Below, piece after piece: positions 43-16,818 of a DNA stretch of 59,920 nucleotides. Under the pieces are notes generated by a model that saw only the letters and a program-made list of their open reading frames with translations, made no database searches and was not told the DNA's origin. Origin of the DNA: a virus; IMG/VR virus record IMGVR_UViG_3300020220_000051, positions 1 to 59,920 of that record; one strand, 5' to 3'. Each line of letters begins with the position of its first letter. Position 1 is the stretch's first letter. The position numbers and the translations under genes were made by a program.

Positions 43-480
43 ATGAAACACATACACACATTTGAAAGCTTCTTAAATGAAAACTCAGGAAAGAAACTGT
101 CAGTTAGTCTAGCCTCCAAAGCAGTTTCATCGTTCAAAAAGGACCTTGATGGCAATAAGATCCAATATGACCAGGTAAGGCCTACAGTTTTTGAGTTAGA
201 CGATACGCCAAAAAGTAGAATGGCTATACAATTGGCTAAAGAAAGATTTGGTATGCAATCGGTTCTAGTAAAAGAGAGCTTGAACGAAGATGAGCTTAAT
301 GAAGATGCAAGAACTACCGACCCTTCATTAAAGGATCATATAGGAAAGAAGATTAAAGCTATTCTTGAAGACGAAGATGGACAAAATTCTTATGTAAGAA
401 TAATGTTATCAGACGGTTCTCGAATAAGCATTACCGCTTATCCTACAGGAAGCGGTGGCGTTGAGATTGCAGTTGAATAA
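43..480 (+). CDS. Predicted internal head protein with capsid-targeting tag
   Basis: The 145-residue protein begins MKHIHTFESFLNE, a tag shared with at least five other proteins in this window. It resembles the capsid-targeting sequence of T4 internal proteins (MKTYQEFIAE). The tag ends in L11-N-E13, which fits the L/I-x-E cleavage rule of T4-type prohead proteases. Two further L-N-E sites at residues 80-82 and 85-87 precede a small beta-rich C-terminal domain (about 93-145), so the mature protein may be only the last ~58 residues. I recognise no enzymatic domain. The leader is A-rich without a clear Shine-Dalgarno. The next gene starts 13 nt after the stop and carries the same tag. Head localisation is inferred from the tag. 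Confidence 0.7.
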   Translation: MKHIHTFESFLNENSGKKLSVSLASKAVSSFKKDLDGNKIQYDQVRPTVFELDDTPKSRMAIQLAKERFGMQSVLVKESLNEDELNEDARTTDPSLKDHIGKKIKAILEDEDGQNSYVRIMLSDGSRISITAYPTGSGGVEIAVE

Positions 481-492
481 AACAAGTAAGAT

Positions 493-864
493 ATGAAACA
501 TCTACACACATTTGAAAGTTTCTTAAATGAAGGCAAGAAGCTTGTAGACATGAGTCGTATTGAACTCGGAGAAGTAGTAAACGGTCATGAAGTTTCTACT
601 ATAACTCTGTTAAACTATCGCGACCACTTAGAGATAGGAACAATTATGTTTGACGAAGCTGAGGAAATAGCAAAAGCCTTGAACTCTGCAGGATTTGATG
701 CAAAGGCAAAAAAACTTCCAACTTACTATAACGGTTCTGTGGAAATTCAGACACCACCAGCTGGTGATAAGACTAAGAAAATGGCAGAAGTAATTGAAGA
801 TGTTGTAGGACATCATTTAGTTGATGATGACGAAAAAAGAATACGCTTAACAGGAAAAATATAA
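493..864 (+). CDS. Predicted internal head protein with capsid-targeting tag
   Basis: This 123-residue protein starts MKHLHTFESFLNEGKK, nearly the same tag as the preceding gene, with a predicted cleavage L11-N-E13|G. The rest is alpha/beta with no family I recognise; it includes a helix rich in acidic and alanine residues around residues 55-70. It follows the previous tagged gene by 12 nt and is probably co-transcribed. The nucleotide sequence of the tag is almost identical to its neighbour while the cargo regions differ, which suggests the tag is a shared module. Function beyond probable packaging in the head is unknown. Confidence 0.68.
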   Translation: MKHLHTFESFLNEGKKLVDMSRIELGEVVNGHEVSTITLLNYRDHLEIGTIMFDEAEEIAKALNSAGFDAKAKKLPTYYNGSVEIQTPPAGDKTKKMAEVIEDVVGHHLVDDDEKRIRLTGKI

Positions 865-881
865 CTATAAAACAAACATAA

Positions 882-2648
882 ATGGCCGGAATAAAAAACA
901 TTCGGGACCTCTACAAAAAGGTCGGAGAAAAAGGTCTCCGTGAGGTACTGGAAGGAGAGATTAGAGTAACAGAAAAGTTCGACGCGTATCGATTCGCTTT
1001 TGAAAAGAACCCACATGATTACAAAATCTACTTCTACGGTAAGAACGGCAAAGCACCTTTATCAAAAATAGATCGCACAGTCAATGATCTATACGAGCAA
1101 GCAATCTCTTATATTGAGAATCTGCCTGCTGACATTAAGAAAGCAATACCACCTCGCCACAGGTTTGGTTTCTCTTGGTTTCCCAATAAAAAACCTCTTA
1201 ACACTGAGTATGATCGTCGCCCAAAGAATGGGTTAATGCTTACAGACATTACTGTTCGCAATCGTCAATGGGATGTTACCAATGAAGTTAAAGACAACAA
1301 GATCTTTGAACGCTGGGGCGGAATCTTTGGAGTTGAGTCAAACATGCCTGTCTTTGAAGGAAGACTTGATAGTGAAACGATTGATAGTTTAGTTAGAATG
1401 GCTAAGCATGAATATGAATTGGTTTCTCTTAATGAATCAAGTGTTTACACAAGCGGTAAACTCAATACACAAAGCAATAACATTGAAGCTCTTGTAATAG
1501 AATCAGGCTCTGAACTGTTTAAGATCGCTGATGTTATAGAAGAAGAAAGACGAGTTGAGAAACGCAGTCATCTTTTTGACATCTTATTGCTCGACATCTG
1601 CGAGCACATAAACTCAATGAGACTTGATGAACACAAGCCGGTTGCTCACCACCCCGATGAAGCATACATCGAGCTGGTTTCTGAGGTGTTTAACGAATTT
1701 GTTGACAGAAGAGGGCGTGACTTTCTAGAGTCTGACTTAGAGAGACCTAAATTCCTGGATAAGAGTGGATTGTTCAACGGTAAATGGGTTAAGAATCCAA
1801 AGACACGAGCAATCATTGAATCTAACGGCAAATATGAATATCTGTTTACCGTATTTTTAACGAATCTCAGGAAACCAAAGTATCCTAGCGGACTGCTAAG
1901 CGAAATGGTAGTTAATGAGTTTAACTCCAAGATAGAAGAAATTAATTCTATCATATCTGATGATTACAGCTTTTTGGAATTTAACACTATCTTGCGCGAA
2001 GCTGATGACAGTGAAAAACCCAAGAAGGAAGTTGATTATGAAAAAGCAGTTCTGTTGCTGCAGTCTTTCTTTGGTTCCCCGAGGAAAAATCCTAAAGGCA
2101 AGGAAGACGTTAACGTTATAGTTGTTGATTGTTCAAAACTCAATAACTCGGTTATTCTTGAAGCAGAAAGATTAATGAAACTTAACAAACATCGTTGCTT
2201 TTTAATACATGATGTATTTAGTGCTAATCGTGATTTTGTTTTGGAATTGCCAACAATTCGCAAGATCTTGTCAAAGTTTATTGAAGATTATCACGACTTA
2301 TTTATCGGCTACAAGATATCAACTCATCCTCTAATATCCAACATATATAAAGTTCTGTCTCAAGATTTTAACCCTTGCACAATTACTTACTTTGAGAGAG
2401 ATAAGAAATTTGTTGAGTTGGAACAAAATGCTATGCGAGCAATGTTTGGTGATGATGTCCCGGATATTGATATTACATATGCATCTTCAAAATCTTTTAA
2501 GAAGTTTATCCAAGCTGTTGAGAAAGATTCATATCATGAGTTTTGTAAGGAAGTTCCGGAGTGCGTTCAGCGCTTCTGGACTGAGATAAAGTCAGCATAT
2601 GACAAGCATGTTTATTATGACTTTATCCGTCTACCTTACACTACATAA
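882..2648 (+). CDS. Ligase-like nucleotidyltransferase fused to a C-terminal Rossmann-like domain
   Basis: A 588-residue protein. The N-terminal half has the signatures of the covalent nucleotidyltransferase (RNA/DNA ligase) superfamily: motif I KFDAYR with the candidate nucleotide-attached lysine K32, a middle segment RFGFSWFPN near residue 93, motif IV EALVIES near 202 and motif V-like LFKIAD near 213. The C-terminal ~200 residues contain VIVVDCS and a late ASSKSFKKFIQ segment resembling, loosely, the ISSTxxR end of cytidylyltransferase-like enzymes. A polynucleotide end-repair role is therefore possible, but the substrate cannot be read from sequence. It follows the tagged gene by 17 nt and has no tag. 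The ligase-fold call is moderate and the C-terminal call weak. Confidence 0.55.
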   Translation: MAGIKNIRDLYKKVGEKGLREVLEGEIRVTEKFDAYRFAFEKNPHDYKIYFYGKNGKAPLSKIDRTVNDLYEQAISYIENLPADIKKAIPPRHRFGFSWFPNKKPLNTEYDRRPKNGLMLTDITVRNRQWDVTNEVKDNKIFERWGGIFGVESNMPVFEGRLDSETIDSLVRMAKHEYELVSLNESSVYTSGKLNTQSNNIEALVIESGSELFKIADVIEEERRVEKRSHLFDILLLDICEHINSMRLDEHKPVAHHPDEAYIELVSEVFNEFVDRRGRDFLESDLERPKFLDKSGLFNGKWVKNPKTRAIIESNGKYEYLFTVFLTNLRKPKYPSGLLSEMVVNEFNSKIEEINSIISDDYSFLEFNTILREADDSEKPKKEVDYEKAVLLLQSFFGSPRKNPKGKEDVNVIVVDCSKLNNSVILEAERLMKLNKHRCFLIHDVFSANRDFVLELPTIRKILSKFIEDYHDLFIGYKISTHPLISNIYKVLSQDFNPCTITYFERDKKFVELEQNAMRAMFGDDVPDIDITYASSKSFKKFIQAVEKDSYHEFCKEVPECVQRFWTEIKSAYDKHVYYDFIRLPYTT

Positions 2649-2657
2649 GATATATAC
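2649..2657 (+). promoter_or_regulatory. Late promoter -10-like GATATATAC
   Basis: GATATATAC lies 31 nt upstream of the ATG at 2680. It is the first of at least eleven copies in this window at similar distances from late-type genes, comparable to the T4 late promoter box TATAAATA. Confidence 0.6.
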
Positions 2658-2679
2658 AAAACTAAAATAAGGACAGGAA

Positions 2680-3027
2680 ATGAACAAATACGTAAATAAC
2701 TTTACTGACTTCATGATAAATGAAGGGCGTGTTGTTATCAAGAGAAAATACACCGAGAAACATCCAGAATCTGCGGTTTCAGATAATGCTCCTATTCGTG
2801 AAAGAATCCTATCTTTCGTTAAAGAAAAGAAAAAAGTGACTCATACACAGTTGATGGAATTCATCAACAGTGTTAACGAAGAAACTGGCGGAAACACTAG
2901 TCGTAAATGGGTTAACAAAAATACTCGTTACTTTAATGTTGTTGAAAAGAATAACACCAAGTACTACACTTTATCTAAAATGGGAGAAAGAGTTCACGAG
3001 GCAATAATGAAACAAAAAACTACTTAA
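2680..3027 (+). CDS. Small tagged winged-helix-like protein
   Basis: A 115-residue basic protein. The N-terminus MNKYVNNFTDFMINEG is a divergent version of the tag, with a prohead-protease-like I13-N-E15|G site. Residues ~40-105 look like a small winged-helix fold: ERILSFVKEKKKVTHTQLMEF followed by a beta-hairpin ending in YYTLSKMGERV. This suggests a packaged DNA-binding protein, but no DNA target can be inferred. The start has a usable AGGA upstream and a late-type promoter at 2649. The next gene begins 3 nt downstream. Confidence 0.6.
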   Translation: MNKYVNNFTDFMINEGRVVIKRKYTEKHPESAVSDNAPIRERILSFVKEKKKVTHTQLMEFINSVNEETGGNTSRKWVNKNTRYFNVVEKNNTKYYTLSKMGERVHEAIMKQKTT

Positions 3028-3029
3028 TC

Positions 3030-3599
3030 ATGCCTGCGGTATCTCAAGCACAGCAAAAGCTAATGGGTATGGCATACGCTCTTAAAAAAGGTGATATGAA
3101 ACCCACGAAAGCTAGCAGAGAGGTACAAGATTTAGCTGACAGCATGACCCTTGATCAGCTAAAGGATTTTGCAGAAACTAAACACGAAGGGCTACCTAAA
3201 CACATAGAGGAAGGGAGTATATCCGGATTCCTAAGTACCGGCCCCTTGGTAAGATATAGTAAATACTCGGCAAACATTGGAGCTAGTCATATATTAGCTA
3301 CAAGAGACAAGCAAGATCCACTTATTCAATCATTTATTGACTTTATATCTGATAAGAAAGAAGACGACGAGAAAAAAAAGAATGAAGCAGTTGCGGCTAC
3401 TGTCCCTCCCGGGGTTGCGCAACCTCCTAACACACCTGGCATGGGTAATGTTTCACCACCAGCTAACGGAAACGTGGGTTCTGGTGATAAATTTGGAGAA
3501 GATGACGAAGATGACGTCAACACACGCATTGGAATTATGAGCTTCGACGATTACAAAAAATGGGTTAAGACATGGCAAGATCAAAAACGTCAGAAGTAA
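3030..3599 (+). CDS. DUF3008-like phage protein with extended C-terminus
   Basis: The 189-residue protein starts MPAVSQAQQKLMGMAYALKKG and contains ASREVQDLADSM and LKDFAETKHEGLPKHIEE within residues 1-63. This is the pattern of the small DUF3008 family common in large phages, which normally ends near KHxGLP. Here the family domain is followed by an extra ~120 residues: a low-complexity, Pro/Gly/Asn-rich acidic linker (about 115-165) and a short C-terminal segment MSFDDYKKWVKTW. An I-E-E|G site follows the DUF region near residue 63. Function is unknown. The last 28 nt overlap the next small gene. Confidence 0.65.
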   Translation: MPAVSQAQQKLMGMAYALKKGDMKPTKASREVQDLADSMTLDQLKDFAETKHEGLPKHIEEGSISGFLSTGPLVRYSKYSANIGASHILATRDKQDPLIQSFIDFISDKKEDDEKKKNEAVAATVPPGVAQPPNTPGMGNVSPPANGNVGSGDKFGEDDEDDVNTRIGIMSFDDYKKWVKTWQDQKRQK

Positions 3600-3715
3600 A
3601 GTCTTTTGTAAAAAGGCAAAAAGTAAAAAGACCAGGAATTCATTCAAAAAAGAGAGCATCTAAGCTTAAGAGTTCAAAAAACTACAAAAAGTCTTATAGG
3701 GGGCAAGGAAGATGA
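3572..3715 (+). CDS. 47-residue very basic conserved phage protein
   Basis: The ATG at 3572 opens a 47-codon frame starting MARSKTSEVKSFVKRQ and ending KSYRGQGR. It is dense in Lys/Arg/Ser with almost no acidic residues, so it is a likely nucleic-acid binder. From memory, similar short MARSKTSE-type proteins occur in other T4-like phages, which supports it as a real gene. It overlaps the preceding gene by 28 nt in another frame and ends in an ATGA overlap with the next gene. Function is unknown. Confidence 0.65.
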   Translation: MARSKTSEVKSFVKRQKVKRPGIHSKKRASKLKSSKNYKKSYRGQGR

Positions 3716-4332
3716 GCGAATCAGTTACAATATCTTTGATATCCGGTTTTACCTCGATAATGATTGCTATCATAACAGTTGTCGTTAAGAATTGGCTAGA
3801 TACTCGTGCAGCTATTAGGAAACAACATGCTGAAGAAGCAATCAAGCACGCGGACGTTGGTGAAATGGTCCATATAGCAGAATTCATTGAAAAGATTCGC
3901 GAAGAATATGAGTTCGATCGTGTAGCAATATCACAATTTCATAATGGTGGTAAATTCTTTAACGGCAGAAGTATGAAAAAATTCTCTATGACATATGAAG
4001 CCACTGCGCCTGGAATTGCTCGCATCAAAAGAGAATACCAAAATCTGCTCGTATCAGAATTTCCAAAACTGTTTAACATTCTTTTTGAAGAAGATATGGT
4101 TATAGTTGATGCTCATTGCTGTGATGAGTATCCTGTTATGGCTCGTGAAATGATAAACCAAGGAATCGTTCAAAATGTTGTAATTCCTATTCGCGGTCTT
4201 AAGGGAGATCTGATTGGTTTTATTAGCTGTCATAACATCGGAACTTCGGACGAAAGAATAAGCAAAAACCTAGTTAATGATTTCGTTGATTTTGCCAATC
4301 AACTTTCAGGGTACTTAATAGCAAAACCATGA
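3712..4332 (+). CDS. Membrane-anchored GAF-like domain protein
   Basis: The 206-residue protein opens with one hydrophobic segment (about residues 6-26, ending VVVKNW), then a charged coiled linker, then a ~150-residue alpha/beta domain. The segments FDRVAISQFHNGGKFFNG, VIPIRGLKGDLIGFISCHN and a final helix resemble a GAF/PAS-type sensor fold. I see no catalytic output domain. The topology suggests a single-pass inner-membrane protein with a cytoplasmic ligand-binding domain, possibly acting in host take-over or superinfection exclusion; that role is speculative. It is translationally coupled (ATGA) to the basic 47-residue gene. Confidence 0.5.
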   Translation: MSESVTISLISGFTSIMIAIITVVVKNWLDTRAAIRKQHAEEAIKHADVGEMVHIAEFIEKIREEYEFDRVAISQFHNGGKFFNGRSMKKFSMTYEATAPGIARIKREYQNLLVSEFPKLFNILFEEDMVIVDAHCCDEYPVMAREMINQGIVQNVVIPIRGLKGDLIGFISCHNIGTSDERISKNLVNDFVDFANQLSGYLIAKP

Positions 4333-4338
4333 AAAAAA

Positions 4339-4347
4339 GATATATAA
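4339..4347 (+). promoter_or_regulatory. Late promoter -10-like GATATATAA
   Basis: GATATATAA starts 30 nt upstream of the tagged gene at 4369, with the same sequence and spacing as the other late-type sites. Confidence 0.6.
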
Positions 4348-4368
4348 GAAATTAAACATACATAATAT

Positions 4369-4719
4369 ATGAAACGCATACACACATTTGAAAGCTTCTT
4401 ATACGAAAGCTATTTACTTGAAGCTGAAGACGATGACAAGCAATCAACTGACCGCGGCCCACTTGACAGCGAAGAATTAGAGACTGGTGTTAAGAACAAG
4501 GCAGAAGAGTCTGGCTGTCCAATAGGAATTATCCGTGCAGTATTCCGTCGAGGCATGGCTGCTTGGAAGTCTGGTCACCGCCCTGGTGCAGGCCAAGAGC
4601 AATGGGCATATGCTCGCGTAAACAGCTTCTTGACTGGCGGTGAAGGCACATGGGGTAAAGCTGATACCGACTTGGCAAAAGAAGCCCGAAAGGCCGGTTT
4701 CAATCCTAAAAAGAAATAA
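4369..4719 (+). CDS. Tagged protein with conserved phage RRGMAAWKSGHRPG domain
   Basis: This 116-residue protein starts MKRIHTFESFLYESYLLEAE, a variant of the tag with a protease-like L16-L-E18|A site. The cargo (about 30-116) contains RRGMAAWKSGHRPG and QWAYARVNSF, followed by a Gly/Trp-rich loop and a basic tail ending NPKKK. I recall this cargo pattern in many phage proteins of unknown function, usually without this tag. The stop overlaps the next start (TAATG). It is driven by the late-type site at 4339. Confidence 0.65.
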   Translation: MKRIHTFESFLYESYLLEAEDDDKQSTDRGPLDSEELETGVKNKAEESGCPIGIIRAVFRRGMAAWKSGHRPGAGQEQWAYARVNSFLTGGEGTWGKADTDLAKEARKAGFNPKKK

Positions 4720-4724
4720 TGGAT

Positions 4725-4967
4725 ATGAAACACATAAGCACATTTGAGACCTTCTTAACTGAGGCAGAAAAAGACGCTCCTTACTTTAAAGGGATTGGCA
4801 AAGGTACCATTGATAAGAAAAAGTCTCAAATGGCAAAGCAAGCAGATATGCCCGATGACGATCCCGATGCATACAAAGAGCTGCCTGGTGATACTAAAGG
4901 TAAGAAAATGCTAAAAGCATCTAAACATACAAAATCTTATCACGAATTGTACGGTGATAAGAAGTGA
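4725..4967 (+). CDS. Small tagged head protein
   Basis: An 80-residue protein. An ATG at 4719 would add two residues (MD), but the tag family starts MKH, so the ATG at 4725 (MKHISTFETFLTEAEKD) is preferred. The predicted cleavage is L11-T-E13|A. The remainder is short, charged and rich in Lys, Asp and Pro, ending HELYGDKK, and is probably poorly structured. It is coupled to the preceding tagged gene. Packaging in the head is inferred from the tag; no other function is visible. Confidence 0.6.
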   Translation: MKHISTFETFLTEAEKDAPYFKGIGKGTIDKKKSQMAKQADMPDDDPDAYKELPGDTKGKKMLKASKHTKSYHELYGDKK

Positions 4968-5101
4968 TAGAATATCTTCCAATTATTTTCATAATAATTC
5001 TAATTATTACTGGTATATCACCGGTAATAGTGTACGAAATTCATAGTAGAAGAGATAAGAAAAAAGAGGATGATAACAACCCTTCTGAATCAGATAACTA
5101 A
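4964..5101 (+). CDS. Small single-pass membrane protein, GTG start
   Basis: A GTG at 4964, overlapping the stop of the preceding gene (GTGA), opens a 45-residue frame. It has one strongly hydrophobic segment (EYLPIIFIIILIITGISPVI) followed by a basic stretch HSRRDKKK and an acidic tail ESDN. The topology would be N-out, C-in. The last 12 nt overlap the 3' end of the convergent Hsp20 gene. It could be an accessory holin or exclusion protein, but nothing in the sequence decides this. Confidence 0.4.
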   Translation: MIEYLPIIFIIILIITGISPVIVYEIHSRRDKKKEDDNNPSESDN

Positions 5102-5431
5102 GATAGTTTTCTTTTGCTTTTCAACTTTCTTGGCTACTGATAAAATTAACAGGCCGTTTTCTAATTTAGCAGAAATACTCTCAGAATCAACATCTGTTGC
5201 CTTAAAGGTTAAATTTTCTTTCTTGCTTATAAAACCCGGCAGTTCTCTATCAGTTTCAGCATTAACCTTGATGAAATCATTTTCAACCGTGACAGCTACT
5301 TCTTCTTTCGTAAAACCAGGAAGTAACACACTGATGTCATAACCGGTTTCAGTTTCTTTAAGTCCCCATCTTTGAGGTTTGTGTTTGCCAATCGCAATGT
5401 CGAAGGCTTCATCTAAAAATGTTTTGTACAT
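5090..5431 (-). CDS. Small heat-shock protein (Hsp20, alpha-crystallin domain)
   Basis: The reading frame extends upstream, but the preferred start is the ATG whose complement ends at 5431, giving a 113-residue protein MYKTFLDEAFDIAIG. The body is a short alpha-crystallin domain: GYDISVLLPGFTKEEVAVTV near residues 30-50, then LENGLLILSVAKK near the C-terminus, the G-x-L motif typical of Hsp20. It would act as an ATP-independent holdase. Hsp20 genes are known in T4-like cyanophages. This is the only gene on the minus strand in the window. Its N-terminus contains FLDEA, faintly like the head tag, which may be chance. Confidence 0.85.
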   Translation of the reverse strand: MYKTFLDEAFDIAIGKHKPQRWGLKETETGYDISVLLPGFTKEEVAVTVENDFIKVNAETDRELPGFISKKENLTFKATDVDSESISAKLENGLLILSVAKKVEKQKKTILVI

Positions 5432-5510
5432 ATGTAATTTGTTTTTGAGTTTACAATTAAATATACCCAAAATGTATGCCAGATCATAAAATGTGGTATT
5501 ACCCTGTAAG

Positions 5511-5550
5511 TTTGTCACAAGATGTCTTATCTTGTTGACAAATTGTCAAC
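5511..5550. promoter_or_regulatory. Operator-like cluster of TTGTCA/TGACAA half-sites
   Basis: TTTGTCACAAGAT (5511-5523) faces ATCTTGTTGACAAA (5529-5542) across a 5-nt loop. The second arm overlaps a perfect inverted repeat GTTGACAA-A-TTGTCAAC (5534-5550). Three half-sites thus sit in the 242-bp gap between divergent Hsp20 and dUTPase, where both promoters must lie. A repressor or activator site is the simplest reading; an RNA hairpin is also possible. Confidence 0.45.
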
Positions 5551-5673
5551 TATATAGGTAGACTCCCACCCAAACTCCGTTGATAGTTTTATTCAGTTTT
5601 TTTAGAAAGTTCTTAAATCCTAAGAAAACTATATAAAGGTTTATGAATAAAACTACTAAATATCCTTTACATT

Positions 5674-6165
5674 ATGAAATACACAAAAATTAAAGATGTT
5701 AAGTCTCCATCTCGAGGCACTTCTCAATCTGCGGGTATTGACTTTTTTATTCCTGATACTTGGAATGACGGAGAACCTTACTCAATACCGCCAGGCGGTC
5801 GAGTACTTATTCCTAGCGGAATTAAGGTTAACGTTCCAAGCGGTTATGCACTTATTGCTTTTAACAAAAGCGGTATTGCATCCAAAACAGGATTGATGGT
5901 CGGTGCTTGCGTGGTTGATGAAGATTACCAAGGAGAGGTTCACATTAACATGATTAACACAAATCACCCGTCAGAGGTTTGGGACATGGACGGTCATTAC
6001 GCAACTAACTCAGGACATGTAACCATTAACCCTGGCGATAAATTAGTTCAATTTATTCTACTTCCAATCAATTATTCAAACCCAGAGGAAACTACACTTG
6101 AAGAACTGTATACAAATACTACGGAACGCGGTGAAGGCGGATTCGGTTCAACAGGAATTATATGA
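5674..6165 (+). CDS. dut: dUTP diphosphatase (dUTPase)
   Basis: A 163-residue trimeric-type dUTPase, hydrolysing dUTP to dUMP and pyrophosphate and so keeping uracil out of phage DNA. The five conserved motifs are present: AGIDFF (about 22-27), NKSGIASKTGL (about 68-78), VVDEDYQGEVHINMIN (about 84-99) with the catalytic Asp, GDKLVQFILLPI (about 121-132) and the C-terminal RGEGGFGSTG. Length is usual for the family. It is the first gene of the rightward replication block and overlaps the polymerase start by 4 nt (ATGA). Confidence 0.92.
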   Translation: MKYTKIKDVKSPSRGTSQSAGIDFFIPDTWNDGEPYSIPPGGRVLIPSGIKVNVPSGYALIAFNKSGIASKTGLMVGACVVDEDYQGEVHINMINTNHPSEVWDMDGHYATNSGHVTINPGDKLVQFILLPINYSNPEETTLEELYTNTTERGEGGFGSTGII

Positions 6166-7538
6166 TAGACATCGAACAACAAGACGGTAGATTAAGAATT
6201 TCATATTTTGATGAAAACGGCGATATTGCCATTGATACTTTTGATATTCCGTCGGATCAGATGTATGAATGGGAATACGTTAACCCAGGAGAAAAAGCAG
6301 AGCCTGGTATGTTTTCTTGGGATGGGAAGCCTGTTCGCAAAAAACGAGCAAGATTTCTAAGTAAGTGGAGAATTGAAGATTACTTAAATTCCCTACCTGA
6401 AGAGAGAACCCGAAACATATATTCATCAAATGTTCCTAAAAAATTCTTTCTTGATATTGAAACCGAAGTTGGCGACGAGTGGCCTAAACCTGAAACAGCA
6501 AAGTTTCCAGTTACTGCAATAACTTTCTGTAATGGGAATCGTTTAATATCAATGGGCACGCGTCCTCTAACATCTGCGCAAATCTTAAACATTAAGAAAA
6601 GAATTACTGAACACCTAAAAGAAGATGTTGAGTATAACTATCTTTACTTTAAGAGTGAATACGATATGCTTGTAAGTTTCTTTTACAAAGCAGTTCAGAA
6701 AATGCCTCTTCTTACAGGCTGGAACTTCATAGCATTCGACTGGCTATACTTAATGAACAGATGTAAACGTCTTAATATAGATCCATCCCCCTGCTCGCCA
6801 TCACACAAACTTAGCGGCGACATGAAACTACCACAACATCGTCTTGTTGTTGACTACCTTGATGTATATAAGAAATGGGACCGTGTCATTGACATCAAAG
6901 AAAACAACACGCTTGATTTCGTAGGAAAGACTGCTTTAGGAATACCTAAAGTAAAATACAACGGGACTCTTCAAGACCTTTATGAAAATGACTTTGAGTC
7001 TTATATATTCTACAACGCAGTTGACACTAAACTGGTTGAAATGATAGACAAAAAGCTCAATACTCTTCAAACTTTCTTAACACTGGGTAACATAACACGC
7101 GTTGAAGCAAACCGCGCATACAGTCCAATATGGATGGCAGAAGCAGCCATGGCTCGTGAGTTTCAAACAAGAGGACGAGTTTTTCCTAAAATGGAAAAAC
7201 AGACTAAGAAAAGAGAAAAGTACGAAGGCGCATTTGTCGTAGAACCAAAAACGGGGCTTTATGAATGGGTGGTTTCTTTTGACTTCGCATCACTATATCC
7301 GTCTATCATGAGACAGTGGAACATATCACCTGAATCATATGTTAAAAATGTTACCAAAGAATCCGAGGTAAATCTTAACACTGAAATTGTGTGCTCGTCT
7401 GGCGCAGTTTTTCAAAAAGATACCGACAGTGCTTTTAGAACAATTCTGTCAGAATACTACGGAAAACGCAAAGTTGCCAAGAAAAACTACATGCAAATAG
7501 AAGAAGAAATTGAGCAACTTAAAAAATATATACAATGA
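6162..7538 (+). CDS. 43A: Family B DNA polymerase, N-terminal half (exonuclease + motif A)
   Basis: The 458 residues cover the N-terminal domain, the 3'-5' exonuclease and the first part of the palm and fingers of a T4-type polymerase. Exo I is DIETE (about 98-102), Exo II lies in NFIAFDW (about 188) and Exo III in YNAVDT (about 284). Polymerase motif A is DFASLYPS (about 373-380). The ORF then stops in a charged helix, YYGKRKVAKKNY to QLKKYIQ, corresponding to the first fingers helix. Motifs B and C are missing; they are encoded at 21842-23020. The two products (458 + 392) add up to a normal gp43. A two-subunit enzyme is inferred. Confidence 0.9.
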   Translation: MIDIEQQDGRLRISYFDENGDIAIDTFDIPSDQMYEWEYVNPGEKAEPGMFSWDGKPVRKKRARFLSKWRIEDYLNSLPEERTRNIYSSNVPKKFFLDIETEVGDEWPKPETAKFPVTAITFCNGNRLISMGTRPLTSAQILNIKKRITEHLKEDVEYNYLYFKSEYDMLVSFFYKAVQKMPLLTGWNFIAFDWLYLMNRCKRLNIDPSPCSPSHKLSGDMKLPQHRLVVDYLDVYKKWDRVIDIKENNTLDFVGKTALGIPKVKYNGTLQDLYENDFESYIFYNAVDTKLVEMIDKKLNTLQTFLTLGNITRVEANRAYSPIWMAEAAMAREFQTRGRVFPKMEKQTKKREKYEGAFVVEPKTGLYEWVVSFDFASLYPSIMRQWNISPESYVKNVTKESEVNLNTEIVCSSGAVFQKDTDSAFRTILSEYYGKRKVAKKNYMQIEEEIEQLKKYIQ

Positions 7539-7852: not shown

Positions 7853-7858
7853 AAAGCA

Positions 7859-9715: not shown

Positions 9716-9721
9716 TAAAGT

Positions 9722-10375
9722 ATGGCACTAAAAATCGGTTTAGACAATGTAGTAAAAATCATGAGACCTGAAGGTAGAAAGTTTAACCTACAGGATCTTA
9801 ATGATACAGTGGACGGTTTCATTGAACCTTTTAAGATCGGACCTGTTTGGGTTATGTACGACGAAAAAGCAAAGAAAAAAGGTGAACCGCTAAATACCAT
9901 AGCTTCTTTTTTCTTTCAGGTTGCTATGTACGGAACAGTGTTGGTAGTGCCTTCGCAGCAACTCCCTTCTGACTGGGAAGTAACAGACCCCGATGACTAT
10001 AAATTCACATCTGATGAAATAGACACCGGAGTTTTAATTTCTTTACAGAATGCACTCATGTATAACCGAGTTTTTGGTAATACAAGAGACCCTCTTGAAA
10101 CATTTGAACGCTATCTTCCTAAAGAAGAATGGGTATACAAACCTGATGATGAAAATTTTGATGATAACATAAAGGATTTCTATAGACAGGTATATAACTT
10201 TATTAGCAAAGATCCTGATTCTTTCAAGAAGAATATAATCATCGATGAAGAAAGTGTTACTGTAAGAGTTGAATCTCAACAAGATCGTGAAACTATCGTA
10301 AATCAAATGATAACATACTTTCTTGAAACCGAGGAATATGAAAAATGTGCCGTCCTTAAAAAAGTTCTAGAATAA
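9722..10375 (+). CDS. Hypothetical protein with UVR-like C-terminal helix pair
   Basis: A 217-residue acidic protein, 6 nt after nrdJ. The middle contains VMYDEKAKKKGEPLNTIAS and a hydrophobic stretch. The C-terminus (INQMITYFLETEEYEKCAV) has the spacing of the UvrB/UvrC-interaction helical hairpin (UVR motif), also seen in the small gene at 42439. I do not recognise the whole protein. A terminator follows, so it is probably the last gene of the dut-pol-nrdJ unit. Confidence 0.6.
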   Translation: MALKIGLDNVVKIMRPEGRKFNLQDLNDTVDGFIEPFKIGPVWVMYDEKAKKKGEPLNTIASFFFQVAMYGTVLVVPSQQLPSDWEVTDPDDYKFTSDEIDTGVLISLQNALMYNRVFGNTRDPLETFERYLPKEEWVYKPDDENFDDNIKDFYRQVYNFISKDPDSFKKNIIIDEESVTVRVESQQDRETIVNQMITYFLETEEYEKCAVLKKVLE

Positions 10376-10398
10376 TTCAAACAACACAAACGCAACAT

Positions 10399-10425
10399 GG
10401 CTCTGGGAACTCCAGAGCCTTTGTT
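10399..10425 (+). terminator. Rho-independent terminator
   Basis: GGCTCTGG (10399-10406) pairs with CCAGAGCC (10412-10419) around a 5-nt loop, followed by a short T-rich stretch. It lies 24 nt past the stop of the 217-residue gene. The U tract is weak (TTTGTT). Confidence 0.6.
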
Positions 10426-10524
10426 GTATATAAACTACATGGCAAATTTATTCTTTTGAGGAAATTGCTGGTATAATGAAAAGCAAACATGCGATGGCTG
10501 TAGATGACCATCAAATTAAATAAG

Positions 10525-10983
10525 ATGGAAAAAGATCCTACGCAAAAGGACGAGAACATGATGCCGGTATATCCCGGCTTACTTCCTTATGGGCATAACA
10601 TAAGTGCACCTGCATTCAGACCTACTGAAATGGGTGTTATCTTGAGCAAGTCAGCTGCCGCCATGAACGAGCAAGTTGAGATGCAAAAGAAACAAATTTT
10701 GGAGCAAGTTGAACTTCTTAAAAAGCAATACACAGAACTAGAAGAAAGAAGATTAGTCTCCCTCTTGGTGTATCGTGCAAAGTTTAACTTTAAACCAGAT
10801 GCCGGTGAAGTATATCATCTGTATACACGTGATGATAACACTCTTTTCTTGTCTCTTATTGCTCCACACGAGTGGAATAAACCCGGGATAGAATTTGTTG
10901 CGACTGTAGAGCAGCTGTATGATATGACGTGGCGAATACTTACGCGATCAGAAAACCTAGAAAGAATTGTTAATAACTTTTAG
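10525..10983 (+). CDS. Hypothetical coiled-coil protein
   Basis: The frame also has an ATG at 10504, but the ATG at 10525 (MEKDPTQKDENM) follows the A-rich leader typical here, so I prefer it: 152 residues. Residues ~50-80 form a short coiled coil (MNEQVEMQKKQILEQVELL). The C-terminal part is alpha/beta with LYTRDDNTLFLSLIAPHEW. I recognise no family. A TATAAT box at 10472 may be its promoter. Its last codons (IVNNF) are encoded by the 5' end of repeat element A. Confidence 0.6.
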   Translation: MEKDPTQKDENMMPVYPGLLPYGHNISAPAFRPTEMGVILSKSAAAMNEQVEMQKKQILEQVELLKKQYTELEERRLVSLLVYRAKFNFKPDAGEVYHLYTRDDNTLFLSLIAPHEWNKPGIEFVATVEQLYDMTWRILTRSENLERIVNNF

Positions 10984-11051
10984 AAAAAAGTTGCTTAAAA
11001 GTTTGCATTATATGATTATTTTGGTTAATTTTATTCTATAATTAAAAATCA
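10967..11051 (+). promoter_or_regulatory. Early-type promoter/operator repeat, copy A
   Basis: First of three ~88-bp elements (others at 37102 and 40576). It begins TTGTTAATAAC, continues with an inverted repeat AACTTTT-AGAA-AAAAGTT (10975-10992), then TTTGCAT, then TTTTGGTTAATTTTAT and CTATAATTAA, ending directly at the ATG of the NAD ligase. The conserved -10-like TATAAT and the operator-like palindrome suggest a regulated promoter for early or middle genes. Confidence 0.6.
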
Positions 11052-12878
11052 ATGAGTAATCGCTTCGAGTTAGAACAACTTTATTTTCAAGCCAAAGAGG
11101 CATACTATTCTGGTGAATCTGTTTTATCTGATGATGAATTTGACTCTCTTGAACAAGAACTAATCAGTATGGGTTCTGATGCTCCACATATCGTGGGTGC
11201 TGAGGATCGCAAAGCAAAGTATTCTCACCCATCACCAATGTTATCTCTTGCTAAGTATCAAGCAAGTTTATCAGGTGCAGCACCAGTAGAATCTGCTACA
11301 AACTGGATGAACAAGTTTGGCGCTACTTCCTTTGAGGTAACACCTAAATATGATGGAAATGCAGGTAACGCAATCTATCAAGACGGTAAACTTCTACAAG
11401 TACTGTCTCGCGGTAACGGAACTAAAGGGCGCGATATTACTGACAAGGTAAAACATAACATACCGGAGACTATAGATCTTAAAGGAATCGTTGAAGTACG
11501 CGGTGAAGTGGTAATTAAAGTATCTACATTCAATGAGAAATACGCAACTTTTAAGAATCCTCGTAACTATGTTGCTGGTGTTCTTAATCGCGATGACAAT
11601 TCGCCGTCAATACTTGCGGATCTTGACTTTATCCCTCTTGAGGTAAGGCAACATATTGATGAAGAGATTCGCTATATTGCCCCGAGAATTTCAGGGTTCA
11701 AACATACTGCTCATACTTTTTACTGCGGAATTGAAAACTTTCAATCAGCATATGATGATATGGTTGAGTATCGCAAAAACTCGGATTACCAACTTGACGG
11801 TTTTGTAATCAAAGCGCCTGAAGGCTTGCGATCTGCTTGGGGTGAAAACTCTCACGATCCTAACTGGGCGGTTGCCATCAAGTTTCCTCCTAAAGAAGCA
11901 ATCACAAAAATCAAGAGCATATCTTGGCAATACGGAAAGACTGGAGAGGTTACTCCAGTAGCTGTAATGGAACCTGTTGATCTTGATGGTTCTACGGTTT
12001 CTCGCGCTGCTCTATTTAACTTAGGCTATCTTAAAGAAAAAGGCGCCGTTCCTGGTGCTATGGTTGCTATCGCAAAATCTGGTGATATCATACCGCAGAT
12101 TACTCGAGTAGTAGTTGCTGGAGATACCGCAGGTTTTCAACACCCAGAATCTTGTAAGTGCGGAAGCAAACTTGTAGTAAAAGGAATCCACCTAATGTGT
12201 GAAAATGAGAATTGTGAAATCAAATCCTGGTATAAGTTTCATAACGGTGTTAATGTTTTAGGTCTTGACGGTGTTGGTGGTGCTATGACAAAGCTAATCT
12301 GGAAAGCAGGTATTAAGAATCCTGCTGACTTGCTAAACCCAACCAAGATGAGCAAAGAAACGCTTATAGGTTCAGGATTCTTTAAGGCAGGAAAAACACT
12401 AGATAACCTATTCAAAGAAATTGAGAAATGTTCTGAACTCAAACCGCGAGATCTTGTTATGCTTATGGGAGTTGACGGTATGGGTTGGACTACAGCAAAG
12501 CAAATTGGCAACTACCTCGCGGGTATTGATTACAGTTTCTCCGGTTTACAGAAAGATGTAATCGCGGGATTTGAATTAGGAGGTAAACGCCGCCAAGAAT
12601 ATAACATGATGGTTGAGAGCTTGTCCCCTTACATCAAGATAACTCTTCCTGAAAGGATTGCTGTTGACTCGATAGGCTGTGAATTCACAGGTTCACCGAA
12701 GTCAGCTGGATTCAAGACCAAAGAAGAATTCCTAATTTACGCTAAGTCCAAAGGCTATCATCACACAAGTTTAAATGAAGCTAAAGTATTGTTTACCGAT
12801 GATTTAGGATCAACAAGTTCTAAAATGAGAACTGCTCAATCCAAAGGTGTTAAAGTTCTTTTATACAGCGAAATATAA
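11052..12878 (+). CDS. ligA: NAD-dependent DNA ligase
   Basis: The 608-residue protein matches bacterial-type LigA: an N-terminal Ia-like domain (residues 1-60), adenylation domain with active-site lysine in KYDGNAG near residue 99 and GRDITDKVKHNIP downstream, and an OB-like region near 300. A four-cysteine zinc finger follows (CKCG...CENENC, about 368-390), then helix-hairpin-helix repeats and a C-terminal BRCT-like domain (about 540-608). It seals nicks using NAD+. T4 instead uses an ATP ligase (gp30), so this is a replacement. Promoter repeat A ends at its start codon. Confidence 0.92.
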   Translation: MSNRFELEQLYFQAKEAYYSGESVLSDDEFDSLEQELISMGSDAPHIVGAEDRKAKYSHPSPMLSLAKYQASLSGAAPVESATNWMNKFGATSFEVTPKYDGNAGNAIYQDGKLLQVLSRGNGTKGRDITDKVKHNIPETIDLKGIVEVRGEVVIKVSTFNEKYATFKNPRNYVAGVLNRDDNSPSILADLDFIPLEVRQHIDEEIRYIAPRISGFKHTAHTFYCGIENFQSAYDDMVEYRKNSDYQLDGFVIKAPEGLRSAWGENSHDPNWAVAIKFPPKEAITKIKSISWQYGKTGEVTPVAVMEPVDLDGSTVSRAALFNLGYLKEKGAVPGAMVAIAKSGDIIPQITRVVVAGDTAGFQHPESCKCGSKLVVKGIHLMCENENCEIKSWYKFHNGVNVLGLDGVGGAMTKLIWKAGIKNPADLLNPTKMSKETLIGSGFFKAGKTLDNLFKEIEKCSELKPRDLVMLMGVDGMGWTTAKQIGNYLAGIDYSFSGLQKDVIAGFELGGKRRQEYNMMVESLSPYIKITLPERIAVDSIGCEFTGSPKSAGFKTKEEFLIYAKSKGYHHTSLNEAKVLFTDDLGSTSSKMRTAQSKGVKVLLYSEI

Positions 12879-12971
12879 AAGAATAGTTAAGCTAATGACA
12901 TTCTAAGAACTTTAATCTTTACTGTAATATAATCTATACAATTAAAACTTAAAGACATCTAAAAGAAAATA

Positions 12972-14774
12972 ATGACAAAACAAAAATCTAACAAAGAAAT
13001 TGTAGCACTATCAGATTTTGAACATGTGACACACAGACCAACCATGTATATTGGTTCGGTTGAGAAATCTGAAGAAAGCGTACAGATCGTGGAGAATGGA
13101 AAACTTGTTGCAAAGAACAAGATCATATCTGTAGGATTCTATAAGATGTTTAATGAAATCGTTGACAATGCTTTTGATGAAGCAAAGAGAATGAAGGGCG
13201 TAATGCCTAAAATCATCGTTAAGATTAATTCAAAAAATAATGAAGTAGAAGTAACCGACACTGGTGGCGGATTCATTAACGCTGAAAAGGCAAACACAAA
13301 GACAGGGCAATCCAACGTTGAGACAGCAATGTCAATGTTAAGAGCTGGTTCAAACTTCTATAATGAAAACTCAAATGATTCTTTAATTGGTACTAATGGA
13401 GTGGGTGCTGCTCTTGTGAACATGCTTTCGGAAGAATTTGTTATTACCACAATTAACAATGAAATAGAGTACAACATTCAGTGGAACCGCTTTGAGAAAA
13501 AACGAGAAACCACTGACAAGAAAAAACGCAATTCACAAACGGGTACTACTGTAAGATACATTCCACGCACTGACATTTTCAAAGGATGTACTTGGGATAA
13601 AGAATACTTACACACCATGTTCATCTTTCGGGAGTTCTTAAAGAATCAAGACCCTGTTATCAGTAACTTGGAGATTGAGTTCTTCTTTGACAACACAAAA
13701 CTTGAACTTAACCAGTCATTCTTGCCAGAAGACGCGATTGTGTTTAAGGGCAAGATGGGAATGTTTGTGATATGGAATCGATACGAAAATGCAACATCTG
13801 CTTCATTCGTAAACGGCGCTATATGTACGGGTATTCACCAAAAGATTTTTACTGACTGGGTGAATGACATCTTTGACTATACATTAGCTCATCACTTTTA
13901 CGAGACTCTTCTTATTCTTAACTTTCCACCTAAGCTGGTTCGTTTTGCTGACCAAAACAAAACCAAGTACGCGGCAGGTCGTTGGGAAATACAGCACTTA
14001 CTGACTGACTTTAACAAAAAGATTAATCAGTCTCTCAAGAAAACTAAGTTTTACGAAACTGTTCGTAAACTGATTGATGAAAGAACTCAAACACAAGATC
14101 TTAAAAACATCAAGAACAAGAAGAAAGCTGCAAGCAAACGCATAAGCGATAAGTACTTTCCGCCTTCACAAAGCAAAGGATCTCTTTTCATAGTTGAAGG
14201 TTCTTCAGCTATGGGTTCAATCTTACAGAAACGAGATCCGCGGATTGATGCAGTGTATTCGTTAAAGGGCAAGATTAAGAACGCAAGAAACTTAAGTGAC
14301 TTGAGTTCTAATAATGAAATCATTGACTTGATGAACATTCTTAACCTTGAACCACGAGACGGAAGTAAATGTGCATTCTCAAACGTTGTCATCTCTACCG
14401 ATTGGGACCCTGATGGAATAGGTCACATCGCTTCGTTGGTGATTAACTTGTTCTATAAGTGGTTTCCACAAGTGATTGAAACTGGCAAACTTCATATCTT
14501 AATTACTCCGCTTGTTTCTGCTGAAGTTAAGAACAAAAGACAATACTTCTATTCTCTTCATGAGTGGGGCGAGTTTGAGAAAAGCGGAACTCCTTACAAA
14601 AATGTTCGTTATCTTAAAGGGTTAGGTTCATTGAGTATACAAGACTGGGAAATGGTTATGGCAGAACGCAAGATGTTTAAGATTCGCATAGATCGTTCAG
14701 CTGGCAAATACATGGAAATTGCCTTTGGAAATTCTGCTGACAAGAGAAAACGTTGGTTAGAAGGGAGGATCTAA
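12972..14774 (+). CDS. 39: Type II DNA topoisomerase large subunit
   Basis: The 600-residue protein has the GHKL ATPase of type II topoisomerases: RPTMYIGS near residue 19, EIVDNAFDEA near 62, DTGGGF near 96 and GTNGVGAAL near 138. The TOPRIM domain follows: FIVEGSSAMGS near 405 and STDWDPDGIGH near 473. It corresponds to T4 gp39 with the gp60 part fused, as in phages whose gene 60 is not separate. It acts with the gp52 subunit at 19006 to relax DNA ahead of replication. The 93-nt gap upstream contains a TATAAT-like box. Confidence 0.92.
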   Translation: MTKQKSNKEIVALSDFEHVTHRPTMYIGSVEKSEESVQIVENGKLVAKNKIISVGFYKMFNEIVDNAFDEAKRMKGVMPKIIVKINSKNNEVEVTDTGGGFINAEKANTKTGQSNVETAMSMLRAGSNFYNENSNDSLIGTNGVGAALVNMLSEEFVITTINNEIEYNIQWNRFEKKRETTDKKKRNSQTGTTVRYIPRTDIFKGCTWDKEYLHTMFIFREFLKNQDPVISNLEIEFFFDNTKLELNQSFLPEDAIVFKGKMGMFVIWNRYENATSASFVNGAICTGIHQKIFTDWVNDIFDYTLAHHFYETLLILNFPPKLVRFADQNKTKYAAGRWEIQHLLTDFNKKINQSLKKTKFYETVRKLIDERTQTQDLKNIKNKKKAASKRISDKYFPPSQSKGSLFIVEGSSAMGSILQKRDPRIDAVYSLKGKIKNARNLSDLSSNNEIIDLMNILNLEPRDGSKCAFSNVVISTDWDPDGIGHIASLVINLFYKWFPQVIETGKLHILITPLVSAEVKNKRQYFYSLHEWGEFEKSGTPYKNVRYLKGLGSLSIQDWEMVMAERKMFKIRIDRSAGKYMEIAFGNSADKRKRWLEGRI

Positions 14775-14779
14775 TCCCT

Positions 14780-14788
14780 GATATATAC
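14780..14788 (+). promoter_or_regulatory. Late promoter -10-like GATATATAC
   Basis: Located 34 nt upstream of the tagged gene at 14814. The leader that follows can form a small hairpin (CTCTG 14788-14792 with CAGAG 14806-14810) just before the ATG. Confidence 0.6.
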
Positions 14789-14813
14789 TCTGGTCAAAAA
14801 AAAATCAGAGACT

Positions 14814-15332
14814 ATGAAACACATATCATCATTTGAAAATTTCTTAAACGAGAATGCATTTCATGCTGCTTTGGCAAATGCAAAGAAGCAAGGTCTAAAA
14901 GAGTTTGAATTTCAGGGAAAGAAATACCATGTAAAAGAAGATGCACTTGAAGAAGGCGAAGACCTTAACGAGGCTGCTAAAGACAAGTACTATACAGTAG
15001 ACTGGGCACAAGAAAATGCAAAAGCCATCTACGATCGTAAAACAAAAATATACGCCTTTGCACAAAAAGCACTTGACGCTCTTCCAAAGATTCTTGAAGA
15101 CTGCTGTCCTGGCAAATTCGACCTTGACACATTAGGCTTTTCTGAGAAGGGAAATGCTTTCTTTATCTTTGCTAATCTAAATGACCCAAAAGACCGATTA
15201 GGATTTGACTACAGCTCTTTAGAAGATAATGCAGATTTTGCCAAGTTCTTTGACATGGCAGGTACAAACCTGGATATGCCATCTCAGAGAATGTACACAT
15301 CTTCTTTTAGACTAGATGACAGAAAAGCATAA
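14814..15332 (+). CDS. Predicted internal head protein with tag
   Basis: The 172-residue protein starts MKHISSFENFLNEN, a tag with L11-N-E13. Residues 15-42 (AFHAALANAKKQGLKEFEF to GKKYHV) form a short alpha-beta motif that I believe recurs in T4-like phage head proteins. It ends in two more protease-like sites, L45-E-E47|G and L51-N-E53|A. The remaining ~120 residues would be the mature cargo, an alpha/beta domain I do not recognise. It is first in a run of four tagged genes and has a late-type promoter. Confidence 0.68.
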   Translation: MKHISSFENFLNENAFHAALANAKKQGLKEFEFQGKKYHVKEDALEEGEDLNEAAKDKYYTVDWAQENAKAIYDRKTKIYAFAQKALDALPKILEDCCPGKFDLDTLGFSEKGNAFFIFANLNDPKDRLGFDYSSLEDNADFAKFFDMAGTNLDMPSQRMYTSSFRLDDRKA

Positions 15333-15346
15333 CAAAAACATCTATT

Positions 15347-15859
15347 ATGAAACACATACACACATTTGAAAGCTTCTTGAACGAAGGCAAAGCCAACCAA
15401 GACATTAAAGTTGGTGATACTGTAGGTAATGCGGTACAGGGATTCAACTTTGAGGTAAAGAAGATTAGTGGAGACAAAATGACCGTAAAGGACAAAAAGT
15501 CTGGAAAAGAATTTGAGACTTTTATTGAAAATATGTACAAGTCTTCAAATGAGTCTTTGTTAAATGAAGGAGTCATCACCCCTATGCAAATGGAGATGAA
15601 TGGCAAAAAACTCATTAACAAAATATCTGACGGTGCTAAATTTGAAGGCACGTTCCAAACCCGGCCAGAAACTTTTACAGTTGTCGGTTTTGGTGATAGC
15701 GCTAACGCTTTTAAGATATTTGAAGTAGAAGATTCTGCTGGAAAAAAATTATACTTAAAAGTATCCGTTATGTACGGCTGCAGTTATCAGGTAATGGACA
15801 ATCCTCGTGGAAACTGGGATAGCGCTCAAATGTTTAATCTTAAAAACATAATCATCTAA
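15347..15859 (+). CDS. Predicted internal head protein with tag
   Basis: A 170-residue protein starting MKHIHTFESFLNEGKA, the same 13-residue tag as the gene at 43; the DNA of the two tags is almost identical. Residues 18-65 look like a small beta-barrel (VGDTVGNAV, MTVKDKKSGKEFETFIENM). A second site, L72-N-E74|G, separates it from a ~95-residue C-terminal domain (GVITPMQM onward). If both sites are cut, only the latter remains in the mature head. No enzymatic motif is visible. The next tagged gene starts 1 nt after its stop. Confidence 0.68.
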   Translation: MKHIHTFESFLNEGKANQDIKVGDTVGNAVQGFNFEVKKISGDKMTVKDKKSGKEFETFIENMYKSSNESLLNEGVITPMQMEMNGKKLINKISDGAKFEGTFQTRPETFTVVGFGDSANAFKIFEVEDSAGKKLYLKVSVMYGCSYQVMDNPRGNWDSAQMFNLKNIII

Positions 15860-15860
15860 G

Positions 15861-16400
15861 ATGAAACACATAAAAAGCATTAACGAATACTTCTCAAACA
15901 TCAGTGAAGGTATTAACTACAATGAGGGCGTAGACGCTGACTTATGGGAAGTAGGCTCGTATATGTTAGACGGAACCGGCAAAAACTCCGATGAAATGGA
16001 AGAGAAAGAAGTAGAAGCTGTTGCCGTTGAGGCAATGAAGAAGGCTAAACCTGTTCCACTTACTGGAATTATTAAGAAAGACGTACCACCTTTTCTTAAG
16101 TATGTTGCTGATGCATTCAAAAGATGCGGTATAGAGCTTGACGTGGATAACACTGTTATTGACAGCTCTAACTTTGCTAATGAGTTGTATATTCCGGTTG
16201 CGGATACTGAATACAACCTTTTAACTATGTTAGACTACAGTGAACTTGCTTACAACGGTTCAGAGTTTGTAATTGGCGGTGTTTTTGCCAGCGATGACGA
16301 AGGTTCACTTGACTATGTAATCAGCGACCTCAGCGACCAAGGTGAAGTTATGAAAGCTTGCACAGAGTTTAAGAAATACCTAGAAAATACCAAGAAGTAG
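15861..16400 (+). CDS. Tagged protein, acidic, unknown function
   Basis: A 179-residue acidic protein starting MKHIKSINEYFSNISEGIN, a diverged tag with a protease-like I14-S-E16|G site. The first nine nucleotides of the tag (ATGAAACAC) and the following ATA are kept, then it diverges. The body is alpha/beta with no family I recognise. Its stop is immediately followed by the ATG of the next tagged gene. Confidence 0.6.
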   Translation: MKHIKSINEYFSNISEGINYNEGVDADLWEVGSYMLDGTGKNSDEMEEKEVEAVAVEAMKKAKPVPLTGIIKKDVPPFLKYVADAFKRCGIELDVDNTVIDSSNFANELYIPVADTEYNLLTMLDYSELAYNGSEFVIGGVFASDDEGSLDYVISDLSDQGEVMKACTEFKKYLENTKK

Positions 16401-16793
16401 ATGGTCAAATCCTACGAATCTTGGCTTAATGAAGGTGGTAGAGATTTAACTACTCCAATCAGCATTGAACTTGAAGCTGGTAAAGTTAAAGTGTATGCTG
16501 ATCCAGAAGCTGAAAATTGGTTAGGTGAGACTATAAGAATTGAGATTTATGAAAATCTTCTTAACAAGTTTAATAAAGCACTTGACGATAAAAACGACCA
16601 AGAATTACAGCTTCTTTTGAAAGATGCAAGAGAATTGCCTCTTTTTGGACAAGACAAATCAGCTGCTTGGAAGCAATCACAAGTAGATGGTGTTGAGCAG
16701 TTTAGAACAGGCGCTGAATATCGTCGCTGGTTAGCTAAGTATTGCATAGAAAAAATACAAGCTTTTATTGATTGGGCGCGAAATAACAAGTAA
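16401..16793 (+). CDS. Small tagged protein, unknown function
   Basis: A 130-residue protein whose N-terminus MVKSYESWLNEGGRD is a shortened tag with L9-N-E11|G. Residues 15-130 are helical with a beta-rich start and a Trp-rich C-terminus (AEYRRWLAKYCIEKIQAFI). No family is recognised. It directly follows the previous tagged gene without a gap. Packaging in the head is inferred from the tag. Confidence 0.55.
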   Translation: MVKSYESWLNEGGRDLTTPISIELEAGKVKVYADPEAENWLGETIRIEIYENLLNKFNKALDDKNDQELQLLLKDARELPLFGQDKSAAWKQSQVDGVEQFRTGAEYRRWLAKYCIEKIQAFIDWARNNK

Positions 16794-16797
16794 AAGA

Positions 16798-16818
16798 TGA
16801 AACACATAATTCGCTAAA
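16798..16818 (+). pseudogene. Truncated remnant of the head-tag coding sequence
   Basis: ATGAAACACATAATTCGCTAA encodes MKHII plus R and stops. The first 12 nt are identical to the start of the MKHI tag genes and it occupies the next slot in the tagged-gene row. It looks like a tag that lost its cargo, or a recombination scar. It could also be chance, since only about 12 nt match. Confidence 0.35.

Follow-up and report, generated by a model that had tools for sequence, protein, structure and literature searches.

A short N-terminal peptide is shared by at least eight, and probably nine, unrelated proteins encoded in the IMG/VR entry IMGVR_UViG_3300020220_000051, a complete record of 59,920 bases (hereafter the window) from the incomplete genome of a T4-like myovirus. 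This peptide, the tag, ends in [LI]-x-E and stands ahead of different proteins, its cargos; as with T4-type capsid-targeting sequences, one short start is common to proteins that are otherwise unrelated. Our analysis of the window and of its relatives indicates that the tag is very probably a propeptide for capsid targeting like that of the T4 internal proteins, specific to this lineage and enlarged into a big modular system. The original prediction had proposed a large set of head-packaged, ejected proteins that acquire cargo by recombining behind one tag. The shared tag is confirmed and extends wider than was stated there, and the interpretation, as far as sequence comparison can carry it, is supported with the corrections given below.

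The tag in the window and its relatives

Protein starts were scored over seven start-anchored columns (F-E-x-F-L-x-E); the training set was the window plus the relative G001 (202 kb), and internal protein positions in place of gene starts served as the control. Eight of the 65 window genes exceed the threshold, against 0.00-0.14 expected from internal positions, and in a motif-free comparison of the window 14 pairs of N-termini are similar but no internal pair is. Seven of the eight had been listed by the original prediction, and tagged open reading frames are present at all the starts that it named. These seven lie on the + strand (a slash marks the predicted cut): 43-480 (MKHIHTFESFLNE/N; tag DNA 43-81), with two more LNE sites at residues 80-87; 493-864 (MKHLHTFESFLNE/G; tag DNA 493-531), with a cargo of no known family; 4369-4719 (MKRIHTFESFLYE/S; tag DNA 4369-4407), with a second site LLE/A and a DUF5824 cargo; 4725-4967 (MKHISTFETFLTE/A; tag DNA 4725-4763), whose tag starts at the second ATG of an open reading frame opening at 4719 and whose cargo matches the middle part of a phage cytidyltransferase family; 14814-15332 (MKHISSFENFLNE/N; tag DNA 14814-14852), with a second LNE/A at residues 51-53; 15347-15859 (MKHIHTFESFLNE/G; tag DNA 15347-15385), with a second LNE/G at residues 72-74; and the short-tag gene 16401-16793 (MVKSYESWLNE/G; tag DNA 16401-16433).

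Three starts had been described as diverged, and they fare differently. Gene 16401 is a strong match (core score 18.8) with tagged homologues in G002 and G007. Gene 2680-3027 (+; MNKYVNNFTDFMINE/G; tag DNA 2680-2724) has a spaced tag ending in INE that scores under the threshold, and its orthologues in five relatives (G001, G003, G004, G012 and G013) carry recognised tags. Gene 15861-16400 (+; MKHIKSINEYFSNISE/G), whose start reads MKHIKSINEYFSNISEG, also scores under the threshold; it sits within the tagged run 14814-16793, and its tag-like start is weak and unproven. The eighth gene above the threshold, 34247-34483 (+), starts with MRVQRDDCFEDFIAE and was set aside as a probable chance match; it seems to be a broken head-completion-like gene.

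Many more tagged open reading frames had been expected beyond those listed, and a start-anchored search of the relatives bears this out, with 12-27 tagged genes in each. At a threshold of 12, five relatives have 16/208, 18/85, 17/104, 12/72 and 20/673 genes above it; at a threshold of 10, four further large records have 27, 20, 22 and 12. Without any motif, similar N-terminal pairs outnumber internal pairs by 89 to 8 in G014, 155 to 12 in LR756500 and 59 to 1 in Sphingomonas phage PAU. Contigs retrieved with the 43-480 query carry their tagged genes in runs, one of them (L436) with eight within 4.6 kb. PAU bears a different L-x-E tag, MKTLxxLYE, on 19 genes. Separately, three loci of G012 (193043-193639, 208977-209519 and 216750-217238, all -) have a common upstream stretch reading MPKNFxxSxxxCIFVYKLK, which is probably a repeated promoter region, not protein.

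Correspondence with the T4 capsid-targeting signal

Although trained without T4, the core score puts IpIII at the top of all T4 genes and IpII next, and both are annotated internal head proteins. It misses IpI, which starts with MKTFKEFTSTTT. The T4 sequence MKTYQEFIAE had been attributed to internal proteins and Alt alike; it is found in IpII and IpIII only, and Alt starts with MELITELFDEDTT. Third in the T4 ranking is gp61.1 (AF158101 18966-19130, -), a 54-residue protein that in a two-sequence comparison is 46% identical to gp23 residues 57-93 (E 1e-8), a segment covering the gp21 cut site and the beginning of mature gp23; it looks like a small mimic of the processed arm of the capsid protein.

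In T4 IPIII (MKTYQEFIAE), the residues that matter most are 4 and 7 for targeting and 8 and 10 for processing (PMC9026906); counted from the cut, these are P7, P4, P3 and P1. An Asp at P1 of IPIII prevents processing and leaves targeting intact. The 186 tags collected from the clade have F or Y at P7 in 182 cases, an aromatic residue at P4 in 184, L, I or V at P3 in 181 and E at P1 in 175; since the collecting score favours these residues, this is a match in spacing and not an independent test. The phiKZ-type S/A-x-E cut motif does not fit these P3 residues. Independent evidence comes from features outside the score. Directly behind the cut, 100 of the 186 tags have S, A or G, where about 33 would be expected (S 40, 12.7 expected; A 34, 9.4 expected; G 26, 11.0 expected), and a second [LI]NE within 5 residues past the tag is enriched about 14-fold. 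This enrichment is confined to [LI]NE right behind the tag, as [LI]xE of any kind shows none over the 30 residues after it in a yes/no count. L-x-E is rarer in tagged cargos than in untagged proteins (ratio 0.86, 95% interval 0.76-0.95), whereas L-x-D, L-x-K and L-x-N are not depleted (1.12-1.13), a pattern that exposure to an L-x-E protease would leave.

The gp21-type protease and the gp23 cut site

In the relatives, a gp21-type (S77) protease is encoded immediately upstream of gp23. It scores above the Pfam cut-off in PTm1, LR756500, PAU, pT24 and others, and also in ten large relatives reached through gp23; tag-bearing relatives with a protease over the cut-off include G012, G013, G014, G017, LR756500 and PAU. 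The gp23 propeptide of relatives has L-N-E ahead of the mature arm, as in KYAHYHSLNE/GFAYPQ, so that the capsid protein in these genomes carries the same type of site as the tags (HSLNE/G and similar, against FLTE/A in T4); the cut positions in the relatives' gp23 are inferred, because they are taken from T4. The T4 gp23 site itself, FGSFLTE/AE, is close to FETFLTE/AE of window gene 4725. A short amphipathic N-terminus could have other uses, and the tag might lead elsewhere, for instance to a phage-made compartment or to the membrane, its likeness to T4 being convergent. We consider this highly improbable, as such a destination gives no reason for the L-x-E site, the S/A/G follower, the gp23 site match or the blind recovery of IpII and IpIII.

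Tagged genes often lie near the protease gene. In PAU they flank gp21 on both sides, between neck, portal and capsid genes, with several around gp21, portal and gp23; in G014 a tagged run begins beside gp21, and G012 and G013 each have one or two tagged genes beside it. The clustering around gp21 in PAU and G014 would suit a tag that sends scaffold or core components to the prohead core, to be degraded or expelled at maturation, with cargos that act in building the head and do not reach the host; T4 gp22, gp67 and gp68 are indeed cut to fragments by gp21 (PMC9026906). That explanation is unlikely, because the cargos are mostly accessory and differ between close relatives (the 195 tagged proteins make up 128 cargo families, of which 100 are singletons), many are enzymes, and the depletion of L-x-E within them fits survival of the cargo, not its destruction.

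A probable late-promoter element ahead of tagged genes

The element GATATATA occurs 11 times in the window, always on the + strand (2649, 4339, 14780, 29779, 31355, 35391, 43262, 47805, 51702, 52384 and 53795), where 2.0 occurrences are expected and 0 of 100 shuffles reach 11. It sits ahead of portal (start 35422), sheath (start 47858), tube (start 51741) and other structural genes, all named by position and likeness to T4-type genes, and ahead of tagged genes: the copy at 2649-2656 precedes gene 2680, that at 4339-4346 precedes 4369 and 4725, and that at 14780-14787 precedes the run 14814-16793. Across eleven genomes, 37 of the 50 structural leaders and 13 of the 50 tagged ones have it, against none of the 71 replication leaders; the tagged leaders differ both from replication (p=4e-6) and from other genes (p=0.002). 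Because of this pattern we infer that GATATATA is a late-promoter element of the clade, putative in each of its window copies. Co-expression of tagged and structural genes is indicated by this promoter element only. The T4 late promoter TATAAATA is ahead of no tagged gene, so the proposal that late-type promoters precede several tagged genes holds for GATATATA (2680, 4369, 14814) and fails for the T4 form.

Several results weigh against reading the tag as a capsid-targeting propeptide. Pfam Peptidase_S77 has no match in the window, in eleven close records or in eight further tagged fragments; gp21 and gp23 both fall outside this incomplete record and were not found in several tagged fragments either. 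In LR756500 the tagged genes are not close to gp21, and PTm1, pT24 and MA9V-2 (~180 kb searched) have gp21 and no expanded tag family. Finally, an exact GATATATA is present in only 13 of the 50 tagged leaders.

Modularity and DNA-level history of the tag

The claim that tag DNA is far more alike than cargo DNA is borne out. Mean pairwise identity is ~0.5-0.65 across the tag and 0.22-0.37 from base +39 onward, identity between tagged genes of one genome reaches background at base +39, and genes 43 and 15347 are identical over exactly their first 32 bases (about 32 had been reported). Where tags share an amino acid, their codons are identical in 72% of cases against 48% simulated, a level that 0 of 500 simulations reach. 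Such codon-level copying is supported in the window and G002, weak in G003, G012 and G013, and unsupported in G001, G004 and G014. Shared DNA descent of the tags is thus supported by codon comparison in the window and G002 only; in most relatives, where the likeness of codons does not exceed what codon usage predicts, selection on the peptide would be enough.

These data also bear on whether the shared start is no more than a duplicated translation-start region or a remnant of paralogy, retained because it gives strong translation and of no use to the protein. The excess codon identity in the window and G002, and an identity block that starts near the ribosome-binding site, would agree with this. 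We give it very little credence, since in most relatives the peptide is conserved while codons are only as alike as usage predicts, a sign of selection acting on the peptide and not on the DNA, PAU's unrelated tag has L-x-E as well, and the residues after the cut are constrained.

That cargo is gained behind one tag stands at the level of modularity, as the same cargo is found with a tag, without one and with the tag of another lineage; copying of the tag at the DNA level is supported for the window and G002 and not for most relatives, where peptide selection is sufficient to explain the likeness. G003 has a tagged cREC_REC protein that lacks the tag in G001, G012 and LR756500. The cargo family of gene 43 recurs in G013; it is also present in PAU behind PAU's own tag, and so is the cargo of G003 56151. 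In the window 4369 and 4725 are two tagged genes, but their cargos form a single chain in G002 and belong to one cytidyltransferase chain of 596 residues in Pelagibacter phage HTVC008M. Of 43 fused chains among DUF5824 homologues, 20 have an [LI]xE ahead of the domain, where 8.7 would be expected; a control on solo genes was discarded as invalid, its null having no positions.

In the window, the untagged proteins of 17220-18269 and 18236-18952 (both +) are of the ATP-grasp and PAP2 types; their relatives in G001 are tagged, the PAP2 relative being the end of a 601-residue tagged chain.

Cargo functions

Pfam matches among the relatives' tagged proteins include cytidylyltransferase-like, LicD, ATP-grasp, PAP2, PGA_cap, cREC_REC and PNK3P proteins, a DUF2201 metallopeptidase, DUF285 and a 2'-5' RNA ligase-like protein whose additional match to Acb1 falls slightly short of the cut-off. 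For the window cargos, Pfam, PHROGs and PADLOC gave only DUF5824 and the phage cytidyltransferase family link, and most of these cargos belong to no known family. AlphaFold2 without alignments reached a mean predicted local distance difference test score of 39 for 43-480 and 48 for 14814-15332, and these models were not used. Since T4 Ip1-Ip3 inhibit GmrSD restriction enzymes (PMC12373910), a counter-defence role for some cargos is a fair guess by analogy; action of the cargos against host defence or in early takeover is more tentative than the T4-like delivery proposed below.

The record and its phage

The window terminase (45951-47786), named like the structural genes above, is ~39% identical to those of uncultured huge phages and ~32% to those of Tenacibaculum phage PTm1 and Sphingomonas phage PAU; IMG/VR holds fragments with 100% terminase identity to the window and relatives at 64-92%. 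Two open reading frames ~14 kb apart (6162-7538 and 21842-23020, +) look, from translations read by eye, like two halves of a family B DNA polymerase. At 5090-5518 the - strand encodes an Hsp20 small heat-shock protein, with all its neighbours on the other strand.

Discussion

A mechanism modelled on T4 would run as follows. Tagged proteins would be made late, from the promoter type of the virion structural proteins, as the shared elements suggest; the aromatic residues of the tag would bind the prohead core, and the gp21-type protease would cleave after [LI]-x-E and release the cargo within the head. DNA would then be packed around the freed cargo, which in the next infection would go into the cell along with it. 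The tag, its site, its modularity, the protease next to gp23 in relatives, the matching gp23 site and the common promoter elements can be read from sequence; core binding, cleavage, packaging and ejection are projected from T4 by homology. A gene would turn into cargo by acquiring the tag at its 5' end.

The clade resembles T4 IpI-IpIII (PMC9026906, PMC3012670, PMC12373910) in several ways: the propeptide is short and starts with MK, P7 and P4 are aromatic, the predicted cut follows [LI]-x-E, and one signal serves unrelated cargos. Relatives of the window also have the gp21-type S77 protease and the same site type in gp23. In contrast to T4, which has three such proteins (T-even phages at least 10 in all), the clade has 12-27 per genome, in tandem runs, behind a longer tag of 11-16 residues whose commonest end is LNE, and with many enzyme cargos; the clade is known from sequence alone. 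The MKTLxxLYE set of PAU likewise places one L-x-E tag on many unrelated proteins, some homologous to the clade's cargos, but the tag itself has a different sequence. The inner-body and ejection proteins of phiKZ and SPN3US, cut by gp175/gp245 (PMC9026906), form another large group that is packaged in the head, and there too a protease related to gp21 removes the propeptides, with S/A-x-E in place of [LI]-x-E.

The principle itself is familiar from T4. Reviews already propose that, by means of the T4 signal, T4-like phages can package diverse proteins (PMC9026906, PMC3012670). New are how far the principle extends in a distant clade, the parallel set that PAU carries behind another tag, the presence of enzymes among the cargos, and the way cargos change between tagged, untagged and fused states. 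We found no description of the expanded tag system of the clade or of the PAU tag family in the literature searched, which was mostly outside subscription journals.

Our data suggest that tag-bearing genomes hold a large virion-delivered toolkit that may be read from their sequence. We raise tentatively, as a possibility we rate a little below evenly balanced, a broader view: each lineage among such large T4-like phages may have its own short tag as a delivery code, such that a gene gaining the tag would change from production in the cell to delivery with the DNA. The virion-borne toolkit would then make up roughly 4-24% of genes in tag-rich genomes and would include nucleotidyltransferases, RNA-end repair enzymes and an Acb1-like enzyme against cyclic-oligonucleotide-based antiphage signalling system (CBASS) signalling. 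The injected proteins of uncultured large phages are nearly unknown; if the capsid-targeting reading is true, a start-anchored motif combined with a check for gp21 and gp23 would list candidate injected effectors, many of them of no known family, from metagenomes. Tandem tagged runs, tagged and untagged versions of one cargo, and shared cargo behind the PAU tag also point to a possible route by which phages gain cargo.

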